64,000 nucleotides of DNA from Lucinisca nassula (taxonomy: Eukaryota > Mollusca > Bivalvia > Lucinida > Lucinidae): contig OY757016.1 in the NCBI GenBank assembly GCA_963580285.1, positions 39,199,124 through 39,263,123 of the forward strand, in the 5' to 3' direction. The position numbers and the translations under genes were made by a program. Numbering within the stretch: position 1 is the stretch's first letter; each line of letters opens with the position of its first letter. This document shows, in pieces, positions 6,290 to 63,850 of the stretch. The notes under the pieces are model-generated. The model did no database searches. It was not told the DNA's origin and saw only the letters and a program-made list of their open reading frames with translations.

Positions 6290-6545
6290 AAGCCTCGATA
6301 GCGCAGTGGTTAGCGCGTTCGACTTATGATCGAAAGGTTGTGCGTTCGAATCCGGCCACCGGTATCGAGGTGTGTCCTTGGGCAAGACACGTAATGACAC
6401 TGCCCCACTCCACCCAGGTGTAAATGGGTAGCAGTGGTGTAAAACCCACTGCATCTCTATCTCGCGCGCGTGAAAATACCCGGAATGAGTGTTCGAGAGC
6501 GATTCAATAAGCTTGAAGCTTTCATCGCAATCGAACTAAAATAAA
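6290..6545 (+). mobile_element. tRNA-derived SINE
   Basis: The head folds like a tRNA: CCTCGATA (6293-6300) pairs with TATCGAGG, with an A box TAGCGCAGTGG and a B box GTTCGAATCC. The unrelated body follows (TGTGTCCTTGGGCAAGACAC palindrome, CCCAGGTGTAAATGGGTA). A full tRNA was considered, but the long conserved body and lack of a terminator right after the head favour a SINE. Confidence 0.75.
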
Positions 6546-8345: not shown

Positions 8346-8395
8346 AATAATACATGGTTAGTGTCGCGTAAAGTCATGACGCTGTCCTTGACAAC

Positions 8396-8534
8396 TTCTG
8401 GACTGGAAACTTAGCATTTTAAAACTAGTGAATAAACGCATTTCTTTCTATTCTCAAAATACTAACTTATTACCTCCTATGCCCAAGACGTCTTTACGTC
8501 ATCTTAAACTAGGTATTCAAGAATTTCATAAGAA
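8396..8534 (+). pseudogene. PLE coding fragment upstream of the retrozyme
   Basis: Encodes the segment just N-terminal to the RT (WKLSILKLVNKRISFY... to IQEFHK), matching copy B at 12645-12780. Translation is cut at 8534 by the retrozyme and resumes at 8946 with FVLAPADKAANN. Confidence 0.75.
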
Positions 8535-8613
8535 TATGTTCTATAAAAGGGTTATCCTTTGGAAGCAAGGAATACACCACAGAAGTGAAAAATATGGAGT
8601 GTACATGTTTTCT

Positions 8614-8660
8614 GGGCCAGACTAGCTAGTTTCGGCCAATTAGGCCTCATCAGTGACCCT
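8614..8660 (-). ncRNA. Type I hammerhead ribozyme, copy 1
   Basis: On the minus strand: CTGATGA, stem II GGCC-TAATT-GGCC, GAA, then short stem III ACTAGCTAGT, and C as the cleavage base. Helix I pairs GGGTCA with TGGCCC (six pairs, one G-U). Cleavage is predicted between the complements of 8620 and 8619. The 10-base self-complementary stem III is unusually short, as reported for minimal hammerheads that act best as dimers. Confidence 0.88.
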
Positions 8661-8874
8661 CAGATATTTTCAAAATTCCACTATGGAATCAATGATCCCA
8701 AAGGACAAGAAAATATAATCTACACTATGATGTAGGGCAGGGAGACGTTTTACCGCCGCCACACATTCCCACACACCAGCTGTAGTGAAGTTAAATATGT
8801 TCTATAAAAGGGTTATCCTTTGGAAGCAAGGAATACACCACAGAAGTGAAAAATATGGAGTGTACATGTTTTCT

Positions 8875-8921
8875 GGGCCAGACTAGCTAGTTTCGGCCAA
8901 TTAGGCCTCATCAGTGACCCT
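8875..8921 (-). ncRNA. Type I hammerhead ribozyme, copy 2
   Basis: Same sequence as the copy at 8614-8660, 261 bp downstream. Predicted cleavage lies between the complements of 8881 and 8880. Two cleavage sites in one transcript would release a 261-nt monomer suited to circularisation; this is inferred from the sequence and the known chemistry. Confidence 0.88.
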
Positions 8922-8945
8922 CAGATATTTTCAAAATTCGTTTGT

Positions 8946-10283
8946 TTTGTTTTGGCCCCTGCAGACAAGGCCGCTAACAACGTCGTGGTTGTGTGACGGC
9001 TCCACTATGTTAACACGCTTAAGCAGGAGCTTGGTGGTACTAAGGTCTATGAACTTCAGCCTTTAGCTGAAGAGAGAGCTATAGTAGATAAACATGTTTG
9101 TCTTTCAGCCACCAAGTTTGCTGTGTGTGTTAACGAAGGCCAAGACAAGCTTCCTACGCTATACTGGTTACCAAAACTTCATAAAAAACCTTACAAAGCA
9201 CGGTTTATTGCAAATTCTAGCTCTTGCACTACCACTGAACTTTCTAAATTATTAACTTCCTGTCTTACTGCTATTAAAACGCATGTAATTAAATATTGTG
9301 ATAAAGTCTTTGAAAGATCAGGAAGAAATCTGTTTTGGTCTATAAAAAAATCGAATGAGGTTTTAAATAAATTGAAATCTAGACATTTTCGTGCTTCTAG
9401 TCTGTCTACCTACGATTTTTCCACTCTTTACACTACACTTCCTCATAATCTTATAAAAGAAAAGCTTAATGATTTAATTGAATGGGCTTTTCACAGAGAA
9501 GATTCTCTCTATCTTGCATGTAATGTCAGAAATGCATTTTTCACTTCTAAAGAGCATAAGAATTATACACTTTGGTCATGTCAGAAAGTGTGTGATGCCC
9601 TCACCTTTCTACTTGACAATATTTATATTAGATTCGGTACTAAGTTATTTAGACAAATTGTGGGTATTCCGAAGGGTACTAATTACGCACCTCTTGTGGC
9701 TGATCTGTTCTTGTATTGTTATGAAAGAGACTTCATTTTGTCGCTTTCCATTGATAACCAATCTGAAATTATTGAAGCTTTTAGCTCTACTTCTAGATAT
9801 TTAGATGATTTATTAAATATTGATAATACCTATTTTGATGGTTTGATCAGTCAGATTTACCCCCTAGAACTTCAGTTAAATAAAGCAAATTCTTCTGATA
9901 CCGAGGCCCCGTTTTTGGATTTACATCTATCTATTGTAGATGGATTTGTTTCGTGCAAAATTTATGATAAACGCGATGACTTTGATTTTGGGATTGTAAA
10001 TTTTCCTTTTTTGGATGGTGATGTTCCTCGTGCGCCATCCTATGGCGTTTATATTTCGCAATTAATTCGATTTGCTAGAGTGTGTAGTCATGTAACTGAC
10101 TTCAACACTCGTAATAAATTATTAACGGCTAAACTCCTTAATCAGGGTTATCGGTACCATAAACTACGCAAAGCCTTTTCAAAATTTTATAGACGCCATT
10201 CTGATTTAATTTCAAAATTCAATATTGGACTTAAATCTCTTCTGCAACAAGGTCTATCGGAACCCGAATTTTATGGTGACTAA
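8946..10283 (+). pseudogene. PLE reverse transcriptase, copy A (in-frame TGA; TAA near the end)
   Basis: RT domain of a Penelope-like element. Motifs in order: LYWLPKLHKKPYKARF (fingers), STYDFSTLYTTLP with the motif A aspartate, GIPKGTNYAPLVADLF (motif B; copy B has the more usual GIPMGTNCAP-like form), SRYLDDLLNI with the motif C aspartates, then the thumb region HKLRKAFSKFYRRH. The frame is open from 8946 to 10280 except for TGA at 8994-8996, at the same position as in copy B and proposed as selenocysteine. TAA at 10281-10283 replaces a leucine codon present in copy B and is ordinary decay. Motif B changes (K for M, Y for C) suggest the copy is inactive. Confidence 0.85.
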
Positions 10284-10496
10284 GTATATAAATTCAGAAA
10301 AATATATCACCGCAATGACTTCAGCACCCAATTTCGTAAAATCATTCTTCGATATAAAAAGATTGGGTACAACATGGATATTATACGACAGACTGCATGC
10401 ATTGTAGTTAACCCAATCACGGTTGGCAACTTTGCTTCCCTCTTTAATTGCACACCGGTGGGTCAGGCCTCAGATTCTATGACGGCTCCAACGTAA
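10284..10496 (+). pseudogene. PLE RT C-terminal extension, copy A
   Basis: Continues the RT frame for 70 codons after the premature TAA: VYKFRKIYHRNDFSTQF..., then ILRYKKIGYN and NPITVGNFASLFNCTP, ending SDSMTAPT before TAA at 10494-10496. The same ending occurs in copy B, at 42.1 kb and at 23.6 kb (minus), so this is the true C terminus of the family. The last codons and the stop lie inside the candidate SECIS. Confidence 0.8.
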
Positions 10497-10556
10497 AGGC
10501 TTATTGAAAATTAGAGAGATAATGTTGGTTGGTGCCTGATGCTCTGTCTCTGGTCG
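10467..10556 (+). promoter_or_regulatory. Candidate SECIS element, copy A
   Basis: Seen: ATGAC (10479-10483), 11 further bases, AAA (10495-10497), and TGAT (10537-10540). GGC after ATGAC pairs with GCC before TGAT, and CCAAC pairs with GTTGG, giving a helix with one U-U mismatch. This is the eukaryotic SECIS layout: a UGA/GA quartet, a helix of about 11-12 nt, and unpaired AAA. In other copies the GGC/GCC pair is GGT/ACC, a compensatory change. Function (recoding UGA as selenocysteine) is inferred. Confidence 0.75.
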
Positions 10557-11068
10557 GGCTCATCGGAGTCTAACTGTTGGTTTTCTTTTGCTCCAGCATT
10601 TCAGTGGTTTCTTGCTGTCGAGTCCTCACCGTTGTCTCACCTCTGTGGTTCTTTGATTTTTGTGTTTACGGAGATGTTGCACTGATGAGTTAGGAGGCCT
10701 TCATGCGGACTGAACAAATTATTTGTCTAAATCGCGACGGAAGTAAGGGCGAGGATTGTGGCCACGTAAAATCGATTTAAGCCCCCCAGTGGAAATCGTC
10801 CACTGACCGTTCCAAGGCGGCTCTTCTGTGGCGATTTATTTATGTTGTTGTTTGTTACTTACTGTGTGTATCACTTGTGTCTTTTGGTTTTGGATGGCCA
10901 TATGGCCATTTTGTGGGAAAGTAACTGTCCTTATGGCCTTCCTTTGTTTGGGTTTCCATTATGGTCTGGTCGCTTAGTGTTTGTATTTCTTTCCCTTTGG
11001 TGTCTTTTATGGGTGGAGTAAGTTAATTGTATCAATTCCTGATCTTTGTTTTACTTCTATTCTGAACT
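10557..11068 (+). mobile_element. PLE 3' tail, copy A
   Basis: Non-coding tail, the most frequently dispersed part of the element in this window. It matches the inverted copy at 13285-13793 with only a handful of differences over about 510 bp, so one was produced recently. It ends near ACTTCTATTCTG, where copy B begins. Confidence 0.8.
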
Positions 11069-11285
11069 GCTTCGGTGATATAAAGCCCGATTACAAATCT
11101 TTATATAATCAGCACAGTCTTGCAGTCCTTAGTATCACAAATAATTTTAAACTTACTATATCTCCACTTAGGTTACATTCTGCTTCATTGTACGGATTCT
11201 CCATTATATTAATAATTTTAGTGCTATGTTGCCGTCGGTATTGGTGAGGCCCATAAACTTGTTTTCTGTCGCTTCCGTTAATTTA

Positions 11286-12000
11286 AGTGGCGCTGGTAGT
11301 GCCAATTTATTTAAAAATAATCTGAGAGTTAGATTATCTCCTACCAAAGCGCCCATTCTTCGGAAATATACCAATCCGTTCAAAAGAAGTGGAATGTATC
11401 CTAGTATTTCCAAGTGCAATGCTGTTCACATTTATGCACTGCGTCTACCGTTTCTTCGTCTGTAAACGGTAGACGTTTTTCTGTAGTTAACATGTCCGAT
11501 TTGACATGTAGATCTACGGATTTGATATATGTGATAATCTGACATGCTGCAAATAGTAAAACGCAGTATGTCCGGCAAACTAATCGCATGTTAAAAACAA
11601 GTTTTAACGAACACTATCGTAGAATGAGTAAGCCTAAAAAATCGAACACTTTCTTGTACCGTCATTTCAGACGTACAGGTCATTCTATAAAAGATATTTC
11701 TATACAGCCAGTGGAAAAAAAAATATTATGATATAAATTCTACAGCTAGGTTTAAAATTATTAAACGGCATGAAACTGAATTAAAATGGATTAAATTATT
11801 ACAGACACCTTTTCCATTTGGCTTTAATGACAACATTTATCATGAGGGTAATATATCGAAAATGCCCGACTTTGATATTTTCTCGCTTCTGGACAGTCGA
11901 AAGCGTAAAACTATATCGCACGGCACAAGAAAAAATGGTAATTATAAACGTAAATTACGTGCTTTTAAAAGAAACAATACCAGACTGAAGTGACTGTCCA
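11286..12000 (+). pseudogene. PLE N-terminal GIY-YIG endonuclease, copy B
   Basis: After a basic N-terminal region (RLSPTKAPILRKYTNP, then SKCNAV) and a frameshift near 11435, the frame reads DLTCRSTDLIYVII, then TGA (11540-11542), then HAANSKTQYVRQTNRMLKTS, NEHYRRM, and YRHFRRTGHSI. This has the GIY-YIG spacing (IY...YV) and the later His residues of the PLE CCHH motif. The TGA sits where relatives have the Cys of that motif. QYVRQT lacks the usual Gly. A shift near 11725 precedes KRHETELKWIKLL (likely catalytic Glu) and FPFGFNDNIYHEGNIS. Such an enzyme would nick target DNA for priming. Confidence 0.75.
11540..11542 (+). other. Candidate selenocysteine codon (TGA) in the endonuclease
   Basis: In-frame TGA between LIYVII and HAANS. 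In PLE GIY-YIG domains this place is normally a Cys following the IY strand (recalled consensus). There is no second copy of the endonuclease in the window for comparison, so chance mutation of a TGC or TGT codon is not excluded. Confidence 0.5.
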
Positions 12001-12008
12001 TAATATTA

Positions 12009-12861
12009 ATGAATCATGGACGCCACTCAATGCTGCTTGTTTTTCTAAGTTCATTACCCATTTCTGTATTACGGATTCTGGATACCGAGGCGAATAAATT
12101 CTACGATATTTCTAATCAGTTATACGACGCTGCTCTTTTAATTAGAGGTTATACTCAGCATGAATGTCCTTTCATCGATTCGGAAATTAATCAAAAACAT
12201 CAGTACATCAAAATATCCTTCATTAATAAGGGTTTGGATTTTATATATTTACCTAGTATCTTCCGGGAGAGTTCGGTTATTTCATCCATTCCTGCTTATT
12301 TTCAAAATACTGAAACACCCATAGTTTGCTATAAATACAATAAACTTGTTAGATCTATCATTTTAATTCCAATAAACTTGTTTCTGATCTTGATATTGAC
12401 ACTAACACTCCTGATACATGTGATTGTAAAAATTCAGTGTATTGCTATCCTGCTGCTGGTCATATTATTACTGGCAATTTAAAAATTATTCCTGATTCTA
12501 GGATACGTAATATAATTTGTAAAGACCTAAATATCGATTTCCTTCTAAAATTGATTCCAATAAATGTAGAGATGAAATCGCTGCTGCCTTGAATGAATTT
12601 GCTAATCGATGGTGTAAACGAGAGTATGTTGAACATAAAGCTCTTAAAGAATGGAAACTTGGCATTCTGAAATTAGTGAACAAACGTATTTCTTTTTATT
12701 CACAAAATACGAACTTATAACCTCCTAAACCTAAGACGTCTTTACGTCACCTTAAACTATGTATTCAAGAATTTCATAGGAAGTTTGTTTTGGCTCCAGC
12801 TGATCACCTTAAACTATGTATTCAAGAATTTCATAGGAAGTTTGTTTTGGCTCCAGCTGAT
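12009..12861 (+). pseudogene. PLE linker region with CxC motif, copy B
   Basis: Encodes ILDTEANKFYDISNQLYDAA, LPSIFRESSVISSIPAYF and CYKYNKLVRS. A one-base loss near 12363 shifts the frame into VSDLDIDTNTPDTCDCKN, where CDC (12419-12427) is the CxC motif, then YPAAGHIITGNLKIIPDS. Another one-base loss near 12520 precedes NKCRDEIAAALNEFANRW and KEWKLGILKLVNKR. TAA near 12718 replaces a Leu codon of copy A. The 157-codon open frame at 12009-12482 is the first part of this region plus out-of-frame sequence, not a gene. Confidence 0.75.
12748..12861 (+). repeat. 57-bp exact tandem duplication in PLE coding sequence
   Basis: Units at 12748-12804 and 12805-12861 are identical. The length is 19 codons, so the frame is kept. 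Each unit covers HLKLCIQEFHRKFVLAPAD. Copy A has only one, so the duplication is private to copy B. Confidence 0.9.
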
Positions 12862-13284
12862 AAGGCCGCTAACAATGTGGTCGTTGTTTGACGGCTTCAC
12901 TATGTTAACACTCTTCAGCAAGAACTTGGTGTTACTAAGGCCTATGAACTACAGCCTTTAGCTGTAGAGAGGGCTTAAGTTGATGACTACATTTGTCATT
13001 CAGCCACCAAGTTTACTGGCTGTGTTACAGAAGGCCAAGACAAGCTTCCTACGTACTATTGGTTACCTAAACTTCATAAAAGACCATACAAAGCACGATT
13101 TATTGCAAATTCAAGCTCTTGCACCACCACTGAACTCTCCAAATTATTAACTTCATGTTTTACTGCCATCAAAAACATGTGATAAAATATTGCGACAAAG
13201 TATTCGAAGGAACATGTAGAAATCTGTTTTGGTCTATAAAAAATTCTAATGAAGTTTTAAATAAATTGAAATCCAGACGTTTTC
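12862..13284 (+). pseudogene. PLE reverse transcriptase, copy B, part 1
   Basis: Reads KAANNVVVV, TGA (12889-12891), RLHYVNTLQQELG..., with TAA near 12977 in place of an Ile codon of copy A, then LPTYYWLPKLHKRPYKARFI and SCTTTELSKLLTSC. A deletion in the poly-A stretch near 13172 breaks the frame. Interrupted at 13285 by an inverted PLE tail. Confidence 0.8.
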
Positions 13285-13793
13285 ATGCTTCAGAGTAGAA
13301 GTAAAACAAAGATCAGGAATTGATACAATTAACTTACTCCACCCATAAAAGACACCAAAGGGAAAGAAATACAAACATTAAGCGACCAGACCATAATGGA
13401 AACCTAAACAAAGGAAGGCCATAAGGACAGTTACTTTCCCACAAAATGGCCATATGGCCATCCAAAACCAAAAGACACAAGTCATACACACAGTAAGTAA
13501 CAAACAACAACATAAATAAATCGCCACAGAAGAGCCGCCTTGGAACGGTCAGTGGAAGATTTCCACTGGGGGCTTAAATCGATTTTACGTGGCCACAATC
13601 CTCGCCCTTACTTCCGTCGCGATTTAGACAAATAATTTGTTCAGTCCGCATGAAGGCCTCCTAACTCATCAGTGCAACATCTCCGTGAACACAAAAATCA
13701 AAGAACCACAGAGGTGAGACAACGGTGAGGACTCGACAGCAAGAAACCACTGAAATGCTGGAGCAAAAGAAAACCAACAGTTAGACTCCAGTC
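13285..13793 (-). mobile_element. Inverted PLE 3' tail inserted in copy B's RT
   Basis: Minus-strand copy of the tail at about 10565-11068, nearly identical to it. It splits the RT just before motif A; a short CAG is repeated at the junctions, a possible target duplication. Its 5' truncation point lies just 3' of the SECIS. It forms, with copy A's tail, a ~510-bp inverted repeat about 2.2 kb apart. Confidence 0.85.
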
Positions 13794-14874
13794 TGTTTAC
13801 TTATGATTTTCCACCCTTTACACTACACTTCCTAATAATCTTATATGATTTAATTGAATGGGCAATTCATAGGGAAGACTCTCTCTATCTTGCATGTAAT
13901 GTAAGAAATGCGTTTTTCACTTCTGAAGAGCATAAAACTATACTTTATGGTCATGTCAGAAGGTGTGTGAAGCTCTCAACTTTCTACTTGACAATATTTA
14001 CATAAGATTTGGTACTAAGCTATTTAGACAAGTTGTGGATATTCCGATGGGTACTAATTGCGCACCACTTGTGGCTGATCTGTTTTTGCTTTGCTATGAG
14101 AGAGACTTCATGATGTCCCTTTCTGTTGATAACCAGTCTGAAATCATTGAAGCGTTTAGCTCCACTTCTAGATATTTGGACGATTTACTAAATATTGATA
14201 ATACCTATTTCGATGGTTTGATCAGTCAAATTTACCCCCCAGACTTCAGTTAAATAAAGCAAATTCTTCGTATACCGAGGTCCCGTTTTTTGAATTTACA
14301 CCTATCTATTGTGGATGGGTTTGTTTCTTGCAAAATTTATGATAAACGCGATAATTTTGATTTTGAGATTGTAAACTTTCCTTTTTTTTTGGACGGTGAT
14401 GTTCCACGTGCGCCATCCTATGGCGTTTATATTTCACAATTAATTCGATTTGGCAAAGTGTGTAGTCATGTAACTGACTTCAGCACTCGTAATAAATGGT
14501 TAACGGCTAAACTTCTTAATCAGGGTTATCGGTCCCATAAACTACGCAAAGCCTTTTCAAAATTTTATAGACGTCATTCTGATTTAATTTCAAAATTCAA
14601 TACTGGACTTAAATCTCTTCTGCAACAAGGTCTATCCGAACCCGAATTTTACGGTGACTTAGTATATAAATTTTGAAAAATTTATAACCGCAATGACTTC
14701 AGCACCCAATTTCGTAAAATCATTCTTCGATATGAAAAGATTGGGTACAACATAAATGTTACACGACAGACTGCATGCATGGCAGTTAACCCAATCACGG
14801 CTGACAACTTTGCTTCCCTCTTTAATTGTACGCCGGTGGGTCAGGCCTCAGATTCTATGACGGTTCCAACGTAA
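13794..14874 (+). pseudogene. PLE reverse transcriptase, copy B, part 2
   Basis: Contains motif A (TYDF... region, damaged), LACNVRNAFFTS, motif B DIPMGTNCAPLVADLF, motif C SRYLDDLLNI, and the thumb HKLRKAFSKFYRRH. Shifts occur near 13840, 13935 and 14250. TGA at 14674-14676 replaces the AGA codon of copy A and of the 41.9 kb copy, so it is decay, not recoding. The frame then runs to SDSMTVPT and TAA at 14872-14874. Confidence 0.8.
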
Positions 14875-14920
14875 AGGCTTATGTTGGTTGGTACCTGATG
14901 CCCCTGTCTCTGGTCGGGCC
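14845..14920 (+). promoter_or_regulatory. Candidate SECIS element, copy B
   Basis: ATGAC (14857-14861), AAA (14873-14875) and TGAT (14896-14899). GGT pairs with ACC and CCAAC with GTTGG around a single U-U mismatch; flanking CAGA/TCTG pairs can form the lower helix. The apical part is shorter than in copy A. The stop TAA (14872-14874) overlaps the AAA. Confidence 0.75.
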
Positions 14921-15405
14921 CATTGGAGTCTAACTGTTGGTTTTTTTTTTTGCTCCATCATATCTGTTGTTTCTTGCTGTCGAGTCCTCACCGTTGTTTC
15001 ATCTCTGTGGTTGTTTGATATTTGTGTTCACGAAGATGTTGCACTGATGAGTTAGGAGGCCTTCATGCGGACTGAACAAATTATTTGTCTTAAACGCGAC
15101 GGAAGTAAGGGCGAGGATTTAAGCCCCCAGTGGAATTCGTTTCCGCTGACCGTTCCAAGGCGGTTATTTTGTCGCGGTTTATTTTTGTTATGGTTTGTCT
15201 TTGGGTGTTTGTGTCGCTTATATTATTTTATTTCAGATAGGCTTTTTGCCATTTTGTGGGAACGTAACTGTCATTTTGGCTTTCCGCTGTTGGCGTATCC
15301 GTTGGGGTCTGTTGCTTCATGTTTCTGTTTCTTTCCCTTTGGTGTCTCTGATGGGAGCTGTGGGTGACTTGTAATGATTCCTGATCATTGCCTCTACTTC
15401 TTTTT
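14921..15405 (+). mobile_element. PLE 3' tail, copy B
   Basis: Diverged relative to copy A's tail: a longer poly-T at about 14940, and a region missing around the ACGTGGCCACA block. The 100-codon frame at 15065-15367 runs in it and is not a gene. Confidence 0.75.
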
Positions 15406-15499: not shown

Positions 15500-15596
15500 G
15501 AAATGTAATATAAATATAAATGTAATGTCGCCAAACGGTAAAAATCGAAGGCTTCCAAGTGAAACATGCAAATAAACGTGTCGATGTCTAATGATA

Positions 15597-16925
15597 CGAG
15601 GACTATTCAAATATGAATTCAAGTAGAACGTTTTCTCATGCACTAATGCGAAAATCACCTGGAAATAAATATCACAGCGTAGAAAAACATTTTACCTATA
15701 CTTTGATACCAAACCTGTTAAAATCCGTCCACTTTAGCCATGTATATAGTTCGATTAAAACTGTCTACTCTTGTATACTGATACAAAACATAGTTGGAAG
15801 AAGGTCAGAGTACGCCGTTGAAATACGGTCCTATTATAAGAATCGTTGTATTCTTGGTATTTGGAGCAAAGACATTTTTGATGAAATATGTTCGGTTTAT
15901 GGGCATAATGAAATGTCTTTTCCGACAGTTTTTCGTTGGTGTAAGAAATTCAGCTGTGGGCTAGGCTCAACAGAAGATGCACCACATGATCGTCGGCCGA
16001 AAAGAGCAACATCTGCCAAGATGGTTGCTAGAGTGAAAGAAATAGTTGCTACCGATGCACGATACACCCCTAGGCAAATAGTTAGTATGGTTGGCATCTT
16101 ATTAGGAGCAGCTCATACAATTCTGAAACGGGATTTGAAAATGAGAAAGATCTGTGCTAGATGGATTCCCCATCTGTTGACAGATGAGCAGAAAAAGACA
16201 CGCGTTCAGTGCGCCAAGTTGCTTAAAAAGTTTCCAAATTACAATGCATGGTCTTTTGCTAATGTCGTCACAGGTGACGAGACATGGGTTCACTTTTTTG
16301 AGCCAAAACGAAAGATTCTGAACAAAATATGGGCAACAAAGTATTGCAAAAGACCATGCATTGCAAAGCGGACCATGAGCGTCAAGAAGGTAAGGTATGC
16401 CATATTCTTTTCAAATCAGGGCCCTGCTATTCAGGTTGCTGTGCCTAAAGGCAAATCTGTAAATGCGAAGTTTTACAAGAATAAAGTTCTTCGAAAATTG
16501 AAGAAATATTTCATAGAACGAAGACCCGCAACTGGTTTGGCCAATGTCAGATTGCTACATGACAATCGCAAGGCGTTCATTGTGCAAGACTATCTGAAGC
16601 AGGAAAATGTTGTTGAACTCCCTCACCCCCCGTATTCCCCTGACCTTGCCCCGTGTGACTTTTTTTTTTGATCCCGCGACTGAAAAAGTACCTTTCTGGT
16701 CGAAAATTTGTACAGCGCAAACACCTCGGTTCTGCAATATTCCAATGCCTTCATAGTATACCTCGAAAAGAATACCAAAATGCATTCAATGATTTTATCA
16801 GAAGACTGAAAGTTTGTTTATCTGTTAAAGGGGAGTACTTTGAGGGGACAAAATAAATTTTTTATCGAAATGTATCACGGAATCATTTTTATGTGCTTAG
16901 TTGCATTCATATTTGAACAGCCTCG
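15597..16925 (+). mobile_element. mariner-family DNA transposon with matched TIRs
   Basis: Terminal inverted repeats CGAGGACTATTCAAATATGA (15597 on) and the inverse at 16905-16925 differ at a few positions only. Both are flanked by TA (15595-15596 and 16926-16927), the mariner target. Total length ~1.33 kb is normal for the family. The single gene is a transposase with one frameshift. Confidence 0.9.
15613..16856 (+). pseudogene. mariner transposase, one frameshift
   Basis: DNA transposase that cuts and joins element ends at TA. The frame is open from 15613, but the first ~70 codons lie in and near the TIR and the natural start is probably downstream, close to YAVEIRSYYKNRC. Features: N-terminal helix-turn-helix region with SFPTVFRWCKKF and DRRPKRATSAKM; WIPHLLTDEQKKTR; VTGDETWVHFFEP (first catalytic Asp); RLLHDNRKAF (second); PHPPYSPDLAPCDFF (third). 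A T-run at about 16661-16671 shifts the frame to a premature stop. One base restores the match to IPRLKKYLSGRKF... ending EYFEGTK at 16853. All three acidic residues are retained. Confidence 0.88.
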
Positions 16926-23061: not shown

Positions 23062-23750
23062 GATATAAAATCAACCCACAAGTCCCATCAGATACACCAA
23101 GGGTAAGAAACACAAACATGAAACAACTAGACCCTAATGGAAACATCACTAGCGGAATGCCAAAAGGACAGTTACTTTCCCACAAAATGGCCAATTGGCT
23201 ATCCAAAACAAAAACATAAGCGATACACACACTCAAAGACAAACAATAACAAAAATAAACAACGACAGAAGAACCGCCTTGCAACGGTCAGTGAAAAGAA
23301 TTTCACTAAGAATTTCACTGAAAGGCTTAAATCGAGTTTACGCGGCCACAATCCACGCCCTTACTTCCGTCGCGATTTAGACAAATAATTTGTTCAGTCC
23401 GCATGCAAGGCCTCCTAACTCATCAGTGCAACATCTCCGTAAACACAAAAATCAAACAACCATAGAGATGAAACAACGGTGATGACTCGACAGCGAGAAA
23501 CCACTGAAATGCTGGAGCAAAAGAACACCAAGAGTTAGCCTTCGATGGGCCCAACCAGAGACAGAGCATCAGGTACCAACCAACATTACTTAAGTCAGCC
23601 TTTACGCTGGAACCGTCATAGAATCTGAGGCCTGACCCACCGGCGTGCAATCAAAGCGGGAAGCAAAGTTATCAAACGTGATTGGGCATGCAGTTTCTCG
23701 TTTAGCATTTATGTTGTATCAATTTTTTTTATATCGAAGAATAATGCATG
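23062..23750 (-). mobile_element. PLE 3' region with SECIS and end of the RT frame
   Basis: Minus-strand copy covering the tail, SECIS and about 100 bp of the C-terminal coding part (frame ending SDSMTVPA then TAA). 5' truncated at about 23750 within the block for FRKIILRYKKIG. Frames at 22811-23284 and 23137-23388 are artefacts of it. Confidence 0.8.
23555..23632 (-). promoter_or_regulatory. Candidate SECIS element in a dispersed PLE fragment
   Basis: Minus strand: ATGAC (complement of 23615-23619), CCAGC, AAA, and TGAT (complement of 23568-23571). GGT/ACC and CCAGC/GTTGG pair, the latter with a G-U. A small stem ACTTAAGT lies in the apical part, as in form 2 SECIS elements. Confidence 0.7.
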
Positions 23751-41881: not shown

Positions 41882-42321
41882 CTCTTCTGTAACAAGGTCT
41901 ATCGGAGCCCGACTTTTTTGATGACTTTTGTGTATAAATTCAGAAAAAAATATGCTTGCAATGATTTTAGTACCCAAGTTCGTAAAATCATTCTTCGATA
42001 TAAAAAGATTGGGTACAACATAAATGTTATACGACAGACTGCATGCATGGTATCTAACCCAATTACGGTTGATAATTTTGCTTCCCTCTTTAGGCCAGGG
42101 CTCAGATTCTATGACGGTTCCAGCGCATAGGCTTACTTATGTAATGTTGGTTGGTACCAGATGCTGTGTCTCTGGTCGGGCCCATCGGAGTCTAACTTTA
42201 AATTTTATGTCTCTCAAGCATTTCAGTTGTCGAGTCCTCACCGTTGTTGCAGCTCTGTGGTTGTTTGATTTTGTGTTCTCGGAAATATTGCACTGATACG
42301 TTAGGAAGCCTACACATAGAC
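41882..42321 (+). pseudogene. PLE RT C-terminus, decayed SECIS and tail
   Basis: LRYKKIGYNINVIRQTACMV and NPITVDNFASLF, then a frameshift, then the SECIS region: ATGAC at 42111 is kept, but the AAA is changed (GCATAGG) and the second quartet reads AGAT. Confirms AGA at the codon that is TGA in copy B (14674). The tail is split by a family B MITE at 42322. Confidence 0.8.
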
Positions 42322-46602: not shown

Positions 46603-47112
46603 CAAAATAGAAGTGAAGGCAATGATCAGGAATCGACACAATTAACCTACAGCTCACATCAGAGACACCAGTGGGAAAGAAGCACAAACAACTAGACCCT
46701 AACGGAAACATCAATAGCGGAAAGCAAAAAGGACAGTCACTTTCCCACAAAATGGCAATTTGGCTATCCAAAACAAAACATTATAAGCGATACACACACC
46801 CGAAGCCAATCATAAAAAAATTAACCGCGACAGAAGAACCGCCTTGGAACGGTCAGTGTAAGGAATTCTACTGGGGGCGGGGTTGGGGGTTAAATCGATT
46901 TTACGTGGCCACACTCCTCACCCTTATTTCCATCGCGATTTAGACAAATGATTTGTTCAGTCCGCATGAAGGCCTCCTAACTCATCAGTGCAACATCTCC
47001 ATGAACACAAAAATCAAACAACCACAGAGATGAAACAACGGTAAGGGTTCGACAGCAAGAAACCACTGAAATGCGGTAACAAAAGAAGACCAACAGTTAG
47101 ACTCCGATGGGC
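46603..47112 (-). mobile_element. PLE 3' tail
   Basis: From ATAGAAGTGAAGGCAATGAT to AACAGTTAGACTCCGATGGG. As with 13285-13793, truncation lies just 3' of the SECIS position. Confidence 0.75.
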
Positions 47113-57487: not shown

Positions 57488-57802
57488 TACATGCCGGCCT
57501 CGGTAGCTCAGTCGGATACGCGTCTGACTGGTGATCAGGAGGACGCGGGTTCGATACCTGCCTGGGCCGGCAACATTCTTTCGTGGAGATTGATCATGAA
57601 ATATTTTCTACGGTCATTTTCTCCCTTCCGCTGATTCAAGAAGGGCAGTTGTCAGTTTCTGGCGAAAAAATGTGCACTGTACTGGTTAACCGCTTACGTA
57701 TAAGCCTGCCCAGGAAAATTGTGGATAGTTAAACTGACCGGCTCAAAAATGACCTCAATATTGTTGACTGGGTCGTTAAACTCCAAAAACAAACAAACAT
57801 TC
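57488..57802 (+). mobile_element. tRNA-derived SINE, full length
   Basis: tRNA-like head: GCCGGCCT (57493) pairs with GGGCCGGC, A box TAGCTCAGTCGG, B box GGTTCGATACC. The body contains CTTCCGCTGATTC and the 3' end GGGTCGTTAAACTCC followed by AAAAACAAAC. No terminator after the head. Confidence 0.8.
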
Positions 57803-61019: not shown

Positions 61020-61215
61020 ATTATAACATAAAGTAGAAGTGAAAGCAAGGATCAGAAATCGATACAATTAACCCACATCTCCCATCAGAGACACCAAACG
61101 GAAAGAAACACACATTTAATACTTAGACCCTAATGGAAACATCAATTGCGGAAAGCCAAGATGACAGTTACTTTCCCACAAAATGGCCAATTGGCTATCA
61201 AAAACAAACCCGACA
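61020..61215 (-). mobile_element. PLE 3' tail fragment
   Basis: TAAAGTAGAAGTGAAAGCAA to CAATTGGCTATCAAAAACAA. Only the distal ~190 bp. Confidence 0.7.
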
Positions 61216-63312: not shown

Positions 63313-63850
63313 TTTTGTTTGATTTGAGGTTTAACGTCCCCGTCCATACTGTAAAGGTCATTTTGGAGACGTTGCTTCCAATTTTGTGGGACTTTTACCC
63401 GACATTGAGATGGAATGACATCTCAAGCCCTGCCACCAAATGAAACCAATAGGGTTTATAAGCATGGATGGGCCGCTTTGCCTGGGCCGTTCCAAGGCGG
63501 TTCTTCTGTGGCGATTTATTTATGTTGTTGTTTGTTACTTACTGTGTGTATCACTTGTGTCTTTTTATTTTGGATGGCCATATGGCCATTTTGTGGGAAA
63601 GTAACTGTCCTTATGGCCTTCCTTTGTTTAGGTTTCCATTATGGTCTGGTCGCTTATTGTTTGTGTTTCTTTCCCTTTGGTGTCTTTGATGGGTGGAGTT
63701 AGTTAATTGTATCGATTCCTGATCTTTGTTTCACTTCTACTTTGATCCTCTAAGCGGTTTACCAGTACTTATGTGCGGGTCGGTTTCAGCTCTGCGTGGA
63801 AGCATCATGCAGCCCATCTATTTCTTCAAGCCCCGATGGGCAGGGGCGTA
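63313..63850 (-). mobile_element. F element with 12-bp TSD, itself holding a PLE tail
   Basis: AAACAACGATGA is at 63301-63312 and again at 63851-63862. The F element runs 63313-63484 and 63741-63850, split by a plus-strand PLE tail at 63485-63740. Confidence 0.8.
63485..63740 (+). mobile_element. PLE 3' tail nested in the F element
   Basis: CGTTCCAAGGCGGTTCTTCT to TTTGTTTCACTTCTAC, very similar to 10810-11060, i.e. a young fragment of the same subfamily. Confidence 0.8.

Follow-up and report, generated by a model that had tools for sequence, protein, structure and literature searches.

Two neighbouring Penelope-like element copies, here called A and B and both decayed, lie within a 64,000-nucleotide stretch of the genome of the lucinid clam Lucinisca nassula (contig OY757016.1, positions 39,199,124 to 39,263,123; the window in what follows). 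In both copies the reverse transcriptase (RT) reading frame is interrupted by a TGA at the same codon, and we wondered whether this TGA is a mark of decay or a codon for selenocysteine (Sec), as a first-pass annotation of the window had proposed. The observations presented below make us highly confident that these copies belong to a Naiad-type retrotransposon whose single protein of ~1,074 codons would be a selenoprotein, with four UGAs read as Sec and one selenocysteine insertion sequence (SECIS) at the 3' end of the message. Sec insertion itself, and a need for Sec in transposition, are what the sequence patterns would imply. The codons at issue, with EN1 and EN2 denoting two sites in the endonuclease (EN) region, are the following:

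8994..8996, plus strand: putative RT Sec site, TGA, copy A (VVVV-U-RLHYVNTL)
12889..12891, plus strand: putative RT Sec site, TGA, copy B
11507..11509, plus strand: EN1 site, TGT (Cys) in copy B; TGA in young genomic copies
11540..11542, plus strand: putative EN2 Sec site, TGA in copy B
11991..11993, plus strand: putative linker Sec site, TGA in copy B (LK-U-LSI); also TGA in intact genomic copies
12419..12427, plus strand: CxC motif, CDC (TGT GAT TGT), copy B
10281..10283, plus strand: decay stop TAA, copy A (tblastn)
12976-12978, plus strand: decay stop TAA, copy B
14674..14676, plus strand: decay stop TGA, copy B; relatives have Lys or Arg there
10494..10496, plus strand: true stop TAA, copy A, in the apical AA of a SECIS-like hairpin
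14872..14874, plus strand: true stop TAA, copy B, inside a SECIS-like hairpin

Copy A keeps the RT site only; copy B keeps three of the candidate Sec codons and has Cys at EN1 and at CxC. The shared RT TGA, the TGA at 11540-11542 and the CDC motif are present as the first-pass annotation had described them. Its recoding candidates in copy B (11540 and 12889) had missed the linker TGA. Three further stops, given as 10281, 12977 and 14674, had been ascribed to decay, and this holds for all of them, with the second now placed at 12976-12978. Six other genomic loci read YGDLVYKF at the position of the copy A stop.

We searched the window's own 2.93-Gb assembly for further copies, and only the top candidates of each query were scored. 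With the RT of copy A as query, none of the 98 copies scored (A included; 111,676 first-look candidates) contained an internal stop, and the open frame was exactly 499 codons long in 89 of them (counted by hand), which in the copies read is the stretch from the RT TGA to the TAA. Two more distant queries, P0333 and P0018, returned frames fitting the same young family, not divergent families (loci were cut out for 30 places of the P0333 search only). For P0018, 86 of 87 scored copies had 499 codons; for P0333, which runs from EN to RT, the open frame was 430 codons long in 97 of 100, as the distance between EN2 and RT would give, and the stops inside were one TGA in 98 copies, a TAG in one and none in one. 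Locus L067, with Cys placed at the TGAs, supplied a full-length query (1,030 residues), for which the top 45 copies out of 136,609 first-look candidates were scored. All 45 were full-length, with exactly four TGAs in 42, four TGAs plus a TAG in one and three TGAs in two, this scoring reporting the numbers of stops and not their positions. One of the two three-TGA copies overlaps locus L038, whose EN2 codon is TGT. Cys scores best at these sites, yet no TGA-free copy was found among the 45, which argues against a Cys-encoding master copy.

Codons were counted in 57 distinct loci wherever the local pattern was recognised, many being unmatched because the copy was truncated. TGA was present at EN1 in 37 of 37 loci, at EN2 in 38 of 39 (the other being the TGT of L038), at the linker site in 36 of 37 (one AGA) and at the RT site in 55 of 56 (one TGC, in L062), and the first Cys of CxC was TGT in 49 of 49. 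Across 31 distinct gapless copies and the 443 codons from EN1 to RT, stops occurred at these four codons only (31, 31, 31 and 30 TGA), the sole exception at the four sites being a TGC at RT; 26 other loci had been removed before this count for gaps, truncation, shortness or lack of the RT pattern (identity of 95% or lower in 16, no RT pattern in 9, insufficient length in 1). The family has thousands of relatives in this genome: the RT-site pattern with any codon gave 6,924 exact matches (3,483 + 3,441), 6,715 of them (3,372 + 3,343; 97.0%) with TGA, and reversed control patterns gave none genome-wide. The first 100 listed places, all on contig C1, read TGA 98 times and TGG twice. A second pattern, specific to an older, B-type subfamily (GTT before and CTT after the site), had 576 matches (291 + 285), and its first 100 listed places read TGA 92, TGG 4, TTG 2, CGA 1 and TTA 1 (counted by hand); TGA is the common state in this subfamily too, and the departures look like ordinary decay of that TGA.

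The first-pass annotation had expected Sec codons to stay TGA (or Cys) in an alignment of the family while stops elsewhere fell at random. The outcome was mostly as predicted, with TGA in 6,715 of 6,924 RT sites, three or four TGAs kept in 45 of 45 full-length copies and one other stop in total among these 45. No sense codon other than Cys prevails at the position of 8994, and the TGA extends well beyond A and B. Its proposal that the TGAs are Sec codons rather than decay appears well supported by this conservation of TGA at four codons in otherwise open copies. The element is also arranged in tandem: locus L067 has a head-to-tail period of 4,163 bp (100% identity over the 2,138 bp compared), and at G000:C3:59977646-59993224 four head-to-tail units with the same 4,163-bp spacing are 100% identical to the query as protein, which suggests a very recent tandem insertion or amplification.

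Coding sequence on both sides of the RT TGA has been under constraint. Over 393 codons in ungapped blocks, A and B differ with dN 0.054 and dS 0.425; 74 codons differ synonymously and 42 non-synonymously, and the differences fall 21, 25 and 86 times at the three codon positions. The RT TGA is the only stop common to A and B in these blocks. A and B thus diverged under purifying selection (dN/dS about 0.13), and both lineages probably encoded functional protein on each side of the TGA for most of the time since they separated. Among the young copies we counted 107 non-synonymous and 109 synonymous codon changes, a few copies being counted twice.

The same codons mark the ends of related proteins in public catalogues. 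Three protein searches were run, and the best 120 of 3,867 (RT), 2,338 (middle) and 654 (N-terminal) matches were all classed. Of the middle pieces, 100 end exactly before the RT site, although the query was itself cut there and favoured pieces of that length (up to 1.75 times the length was admitted); others span it (W 5, C 3, R 1, P 1 and, by extension, Y 1), 5 were unaligned and 4 end earlier. Conversely, 69 RT pieces start after the RT site, 36 span it (C 24, W 9, N 1, L 1, R 1) and 15 were left unassigned. Among the N-terminal pieces, 76 end exactly before the first Cys of CxC, 13 span it (C 6, W 6, S 1), 20 end earlier and 11 were unassigned. At EN2, 98 of these pieces start after the site (19 unassigned), and 51 of the 120 begin at one and the same residue, 7 after EN2; listed proteins that span EN1 have W 2 and, by extension, M 1. 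Taken together, the listed proteins spanning RT, CxC-1 (the first Cys of CxC) or EN2 carry Cys 33, Trp 22 or Arg 2 times, which is 57 of 63, with the Cys residues at the RT site (27) and at CxC-1 (6). In contrast, at conserved Cys positions in the RT core the residue is mostly retained and the pieces run through it (for example WSC, C in 117 of 120); less conserved positions vary. The breaks in the catalogues are probably TGA stops, and CxC-1, which is Cys here, would be Sec (UxC) in many relatives.

One pair illustrates this split: P0220, a 130-aa open reading frame (ORF) that ends in VVVV, and P0040, an RT ORF, have neighbouring locus numbers and come from a 3,222-base contig, presumably the same one, of a Candidatus Thiodiazotropha endolucinida bin. 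The listed relatives include proteins from bins named for Candidatus Thiodiazotropha and for a Lucinoma symbiont, both of which live in lucinid clams. Trp is found at both EN sites and CxC in P0303 and P0347, and at CxC and RT in P0008, P0010, P0013, P0100 and P0159; such residues may be TGG mutants or may reflect translation with table 4. Trp as the general meaning of TGA was considered and rejected, since Cys in other relatives argues against it. Searches for the DNA of relatives gave two weak loci (43% over 43 residues) in public viral contigs, with no alignment from a further search there, and no match in public genome contigs; sequence searches of Pfam and PDB gave no useful match.

Four hairpins with SECIS-like features were located in the window:

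10469..10548, plus strand: SECIS-like hairpin, copy A (Rfam SECIS_1, 25.1 bits, E 0.13)
14847..14908, plus strand: SECIS-like hairpin, copy B (Rfam SECIS_1, 30.7 bits, E 0.0039)
23567..23625, minus strand: SECIS-like hairpin C, in a third, older 3' fragment (coordinates by hand)
42105..42163, plus strand: SECIS-like hairpin D, in a fourth, older 3' fragment (coordinates by hand)

The SECIS_1 matches of A and B (E-values over 4,227 Rfam families) are in the right place and on the right strand, and the same model matches at the same place in loci L004, L024 and L067. The hairpin pattern was present in 26 of 29 RT-anchored loci (missing from L021, L023 and L026). All eight pairs of helix II form in A, B, C, D and L024, with one compensatory pair (C-G in A and L024, U-A in B, C and D) and another that is A-U or G-U. 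The 5' quartet AUGA occurs in all five, the 3' quartet UGAU in all but D, which has AGAT instead, and the apical AAA in A, B, C and L024 and not in D; lengths are 50 nt (B), 59 (C, D), 69 (A-like) and 81 with an extra hairpin (L024, L067). The first-pass annotation had both copies followed by a stem-loop with SECIS features; the features are there in both, but the hairpin starts inside the ORF and overlaps the stop, and so does not simply lie 3' of it. Its 5' AUGA falls in the last codons, where the codons for SDSM begin at 10470 (A) and 14848 (B), and the stop UAA, within GUAAAG, falls in the apical AA. By comparison, cellular SECIS elements lie in the 3' untranslated region, according to the excerpted text of PMC8310308. 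An SDxM motif is present in 47 of the 50 C-termini that were recognised among the 120 RT relatives listed (counted by hand), which fits a constraint at the RNA level; P0113-P0120 are without SDxM, so their SECIS, if any, lies elsewhere. As for the decoding tRNA, two tRNA-Sec genes with anticodon TCA (ARAGORN) were identified in the genome, scoring 80.0 and 77.4 bits. Seven further matches to the tRNA-Sec family model lie above the cut-off (47.2-49.5 bits), of which the one checked (L065) is a tRNA-Ser, the model not being fully specific (5 of 14 control genomes exceed the cut-off).

Several of our observations weigh against Sec decoding. The full-length copies are ~99% identical and so stem from one young burst, whose agreement is partly common descent; independent support comes from copy B, from the B-type subfamily and from other families, known here only as proteins. 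None of the eight B-type departures in the first 100 listed places is Cys, Cys was seen at EN1 only in copy B and at EN2 only in L038, the few listed proteins that span EN2 have Trp (2) or Leu (1), and relatives at the linker site mostly have Asp (D 43, N 3, C 2, V 1; 49 matched among 120). On the RNA side, the SECIS_1 scores (30.7, 25.1, 25.1, 24.1 and 24.1) are all below the gathering score of 35, and Rfam at gathering reports no SECIS of this family. Helix II was picked from folds of the same sequences, and the lowest-energy fold of a short piece of copy B pairs it partly otherwise. Do these points favour ordinary decay of dead copies, with TGAs common by descent only? As relics, A and B do carry further stops as well as frameshifts, and the B-type departures resemble neutral decay. 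However, decay would require TGA-free, intact copies that amplify, and there were none among the 45 scored. It would also leave unexplained why TGAs sit at the same four codons in otherwise open, amplified copies, why TGA is kept at thousands of RT sites and through A/B divergence at a dN/dS of about 0.13, and why other families break at the same residues. We give this explanation practically no credence.

A little less improbable, and still very unlikely in our judgement, is that copies with TGA cannot move by themselves and depend on a Cys-encoding relative that acts in trans. The interchange of Sec and Cys codons (TGT at EN1 in B and at EN2 in L038, TGC at RT in L062) would suit such a relative, but the all-Cys query returned 0 of 45 scored copies without TGA, the minimum being three, and neither a SECIS nor purifying selection at the protein level would be expected. 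We see just as slim a chance for UGA read-through without selenocysteine, or for several separate proteins made by stop and restart. The protein catalogues do list the pieces as separate ORFs, and stop-codon read-through is known from other retroelements. Against this, many relatives have Cys at the RT site and at CxC-1, and the 3' end carries a SECIS-like hairpin. Separate products are also implausible because just 11 codons separate EN1 from EN2, one on each side of the GIY-like strand.

If the four UGAs are Sec codons, a transcript of the ~4.16-kb unit would carry the 1,074-codon ORF for a GIY-YIG-like endonuclease, a CxC linker and an RT (the ORF, from first ATG to TAA, joins two tandem units via the 4,163-bp period). 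Host tRNA-Sec would decode the UGAs at codons 133, 144, 294 and 575, counted from the first ATG of the full-length unit, and a single SECIS hairpin, placed where the ORF ends and spanning the stop UAA, would direct all four. Failure of decoding at any UGA would give a product without the RT core; the full-length protein would then perform target-primed reverse transcription. In the sequence, the GIY-like strand is bracketed by EN1 and EN2, with EN2 preceding the YIG-like strand, and the RT site is N-terminal to the RT core; that selenium contributes metal binding or redox control is a guess. The overlap of SECIS and stop may make decoding sensitive to terminating ribosomes. A bolder extension, which we hold to be doubtful, is that every ribosome that terminates melts the hairpin, formed as it is by the final codons together with the stop, so that Sec decoding, and with it transposition, would limit itself and depend on host selenium. 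UGA might then be, in this lineage, a tolerated sense codon that drifts between sites; the exchange of Cys and Sec at EN1 and CxC, and a linker Sec where Asp once stood, would be such shifts.

A retrotransposon that requires Sec, if this is true, ties its mobility to the selenium-decoding machinery of the host, here in thousands of copies. Automatic annotation splits such elements into false ORFs, as the catalogue pieces suggest, and the family is a natural experiment in which one could follow how Sec and Cys replace each other, how a message with several UGAs is decoded and how a SECIS works when it overlaps the stop.

Within the window, the two copies are laid out as follows:

8386-8535 and 8946 to about 11066, plus strand: copy A
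8386..8535, plus strand: copy A RT reading frame, 5' part, upstream of the insert (tblastn)
8946..10496, plus strand: RT domain and C-terminus, copy A
10497..11066, plus strand: 3' untranslated part, copy A
about 11131 to 15390, plus strand: copy B
11131..12803, plus strand: copy B N-terminal region, GIY-YIG-like endonuclease and CxC linker
12804..12860, plus strand: tandem duplication of 57 nt (exact) in copy B, second copy
13289..13789, minus strand: inverted 3' end of copy A, inserted in the copy B RT (98-100% complementary arms)
13790..14874, plus strand: copy B, remaining RT and C-terminus

Copy A had been taken to start at 8946, but its RT begins further upstream (8386-8535), with an insert at about 8533-8945 splitting the frame. 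It belongs to the young subfamily (97.6% to L067 over 2,126 columns); the N-terminal region of copy B is a frameshifted relic (84% to L067). Identity between A and B in ungapped coding blocks is 85-94%, too low for one to have arisen from the other by recent duplication, and the inverted ~500-nt copy of the A 3' end in B, at 98-100% identity, must be a recent insertion. Further 3'-end fragments of the same family lie at 46603-47112, 63487-63745, 161-273 and 61034-61208.

The insert in copy A contains two hammerhead-like ribozyme cores on the minus strand (8606-8661 and 8867-8922), an exact pair 261 nt apart that we take to resemble a retrozyme or Penelope-type dimer. More such cores lie on the minus strand near 2640, 22483 and 59894; hammerhead-like cores of the window reach 17.6 bits in Rfam against a gathering score of 52. 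A 358-codon open frame at 15595-16671 is mariner-type transposase-like by eye. There are also tRNA-like matches at 2837-2894, 6299-6356 and 57497-57569 (31-37 bits), the first two partial and covering the same model positions, perhaps tRNA-derived short interspersed nuclear elements.

The element looks like a Naiad-type Penelope-like element, which is a known kind. L067 and copy B clearly show EN, linker and RT in this order, the CxC motif between EN and RT is present in B and in 49 of 49 recognised loci, and tandem units (pseudo-long terminal repeats) are present with the 4,163-bp period. The L067 unit gave no hammerhead core match and no Rfam hammerhead match up to E 2. The GIY-YIG-like motif was read by eye, and Pfam gave no match. 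In Foldseek, an AlphaFold model of the N-terminal part (predicted local distance difference test, pLDDT, 56) placed the I-TevI catalytic domain at rank 4-5 (probability 0.85, TMt 0.55, E 0.4), the three matches above it having probabilities of 0.08 or less. For the RT model (pLDDT 53) the top eight matches were telomerase RT chains (best probability 0.97, E 0.014). Neither model, both of poor pLDDT, had a Foldseek match at E 0.001 or better; the matches point to a probable GIY-YIG endonuclease N-terminal to an RT probably related to that of telomerase.

Finally, we compared the element with known systems. Naiads have an N-terminal GIY-YIG, a CxC linker, a telomerase-like RT and tandem units without a hammerhead, and the present element shares with them the EN-linker-RT order, CxC, the tandem units and the lack of a hammerhead. 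Craig, Yushenova, Rodriguez and Arkhipova reportedly described, in 2021 (MBE 38:5005), clam and spider Naiads with several in-frame UGAs as Sec, so the kind is already known. The present element differs in having four candidate Sec sites, of which the linker one is mostly Asp in matched relatives, in a CxC that is itself Cys and in a SECIS-like hairpin that spans the stop codon. Our literature search found no paper that joins Penelope-like elements with selenocysteine or selenoproteins, in a collection that did not include Craig et al. 2021. Canonical Penelope and Poseidon elements, as far as the excerpted text of PMC11167929 describes them, likewise combine GIY-YIG and a telomerase-like RT in one ORF with a tandem arrangement, but have the endonuclease C-terminal to the RT and a hammerhead, neither of which was found in this unit. 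The fowlpox glutathione peroxidase mRNA also has its SECIS in the coding sequence (Mix et al. 2007, as cited in the excerpt of PMC8310308), whereas the hairpin of this retrotransposon lies across the stop codon and would have four UGAs to serve. In molluscan selenoprotein P, the subject of Baclaocos et al. 2019, several UGAs of one mRNA are decoded as Sec, but the protein is a cellular selenium carrier (PMC8310308, same excerpt) and not a retrotransposon. Set beside these systems, the copy counts, the putative linker Sec at a mostly-Asp site and the stop-straddling SECIS are details that may be new.

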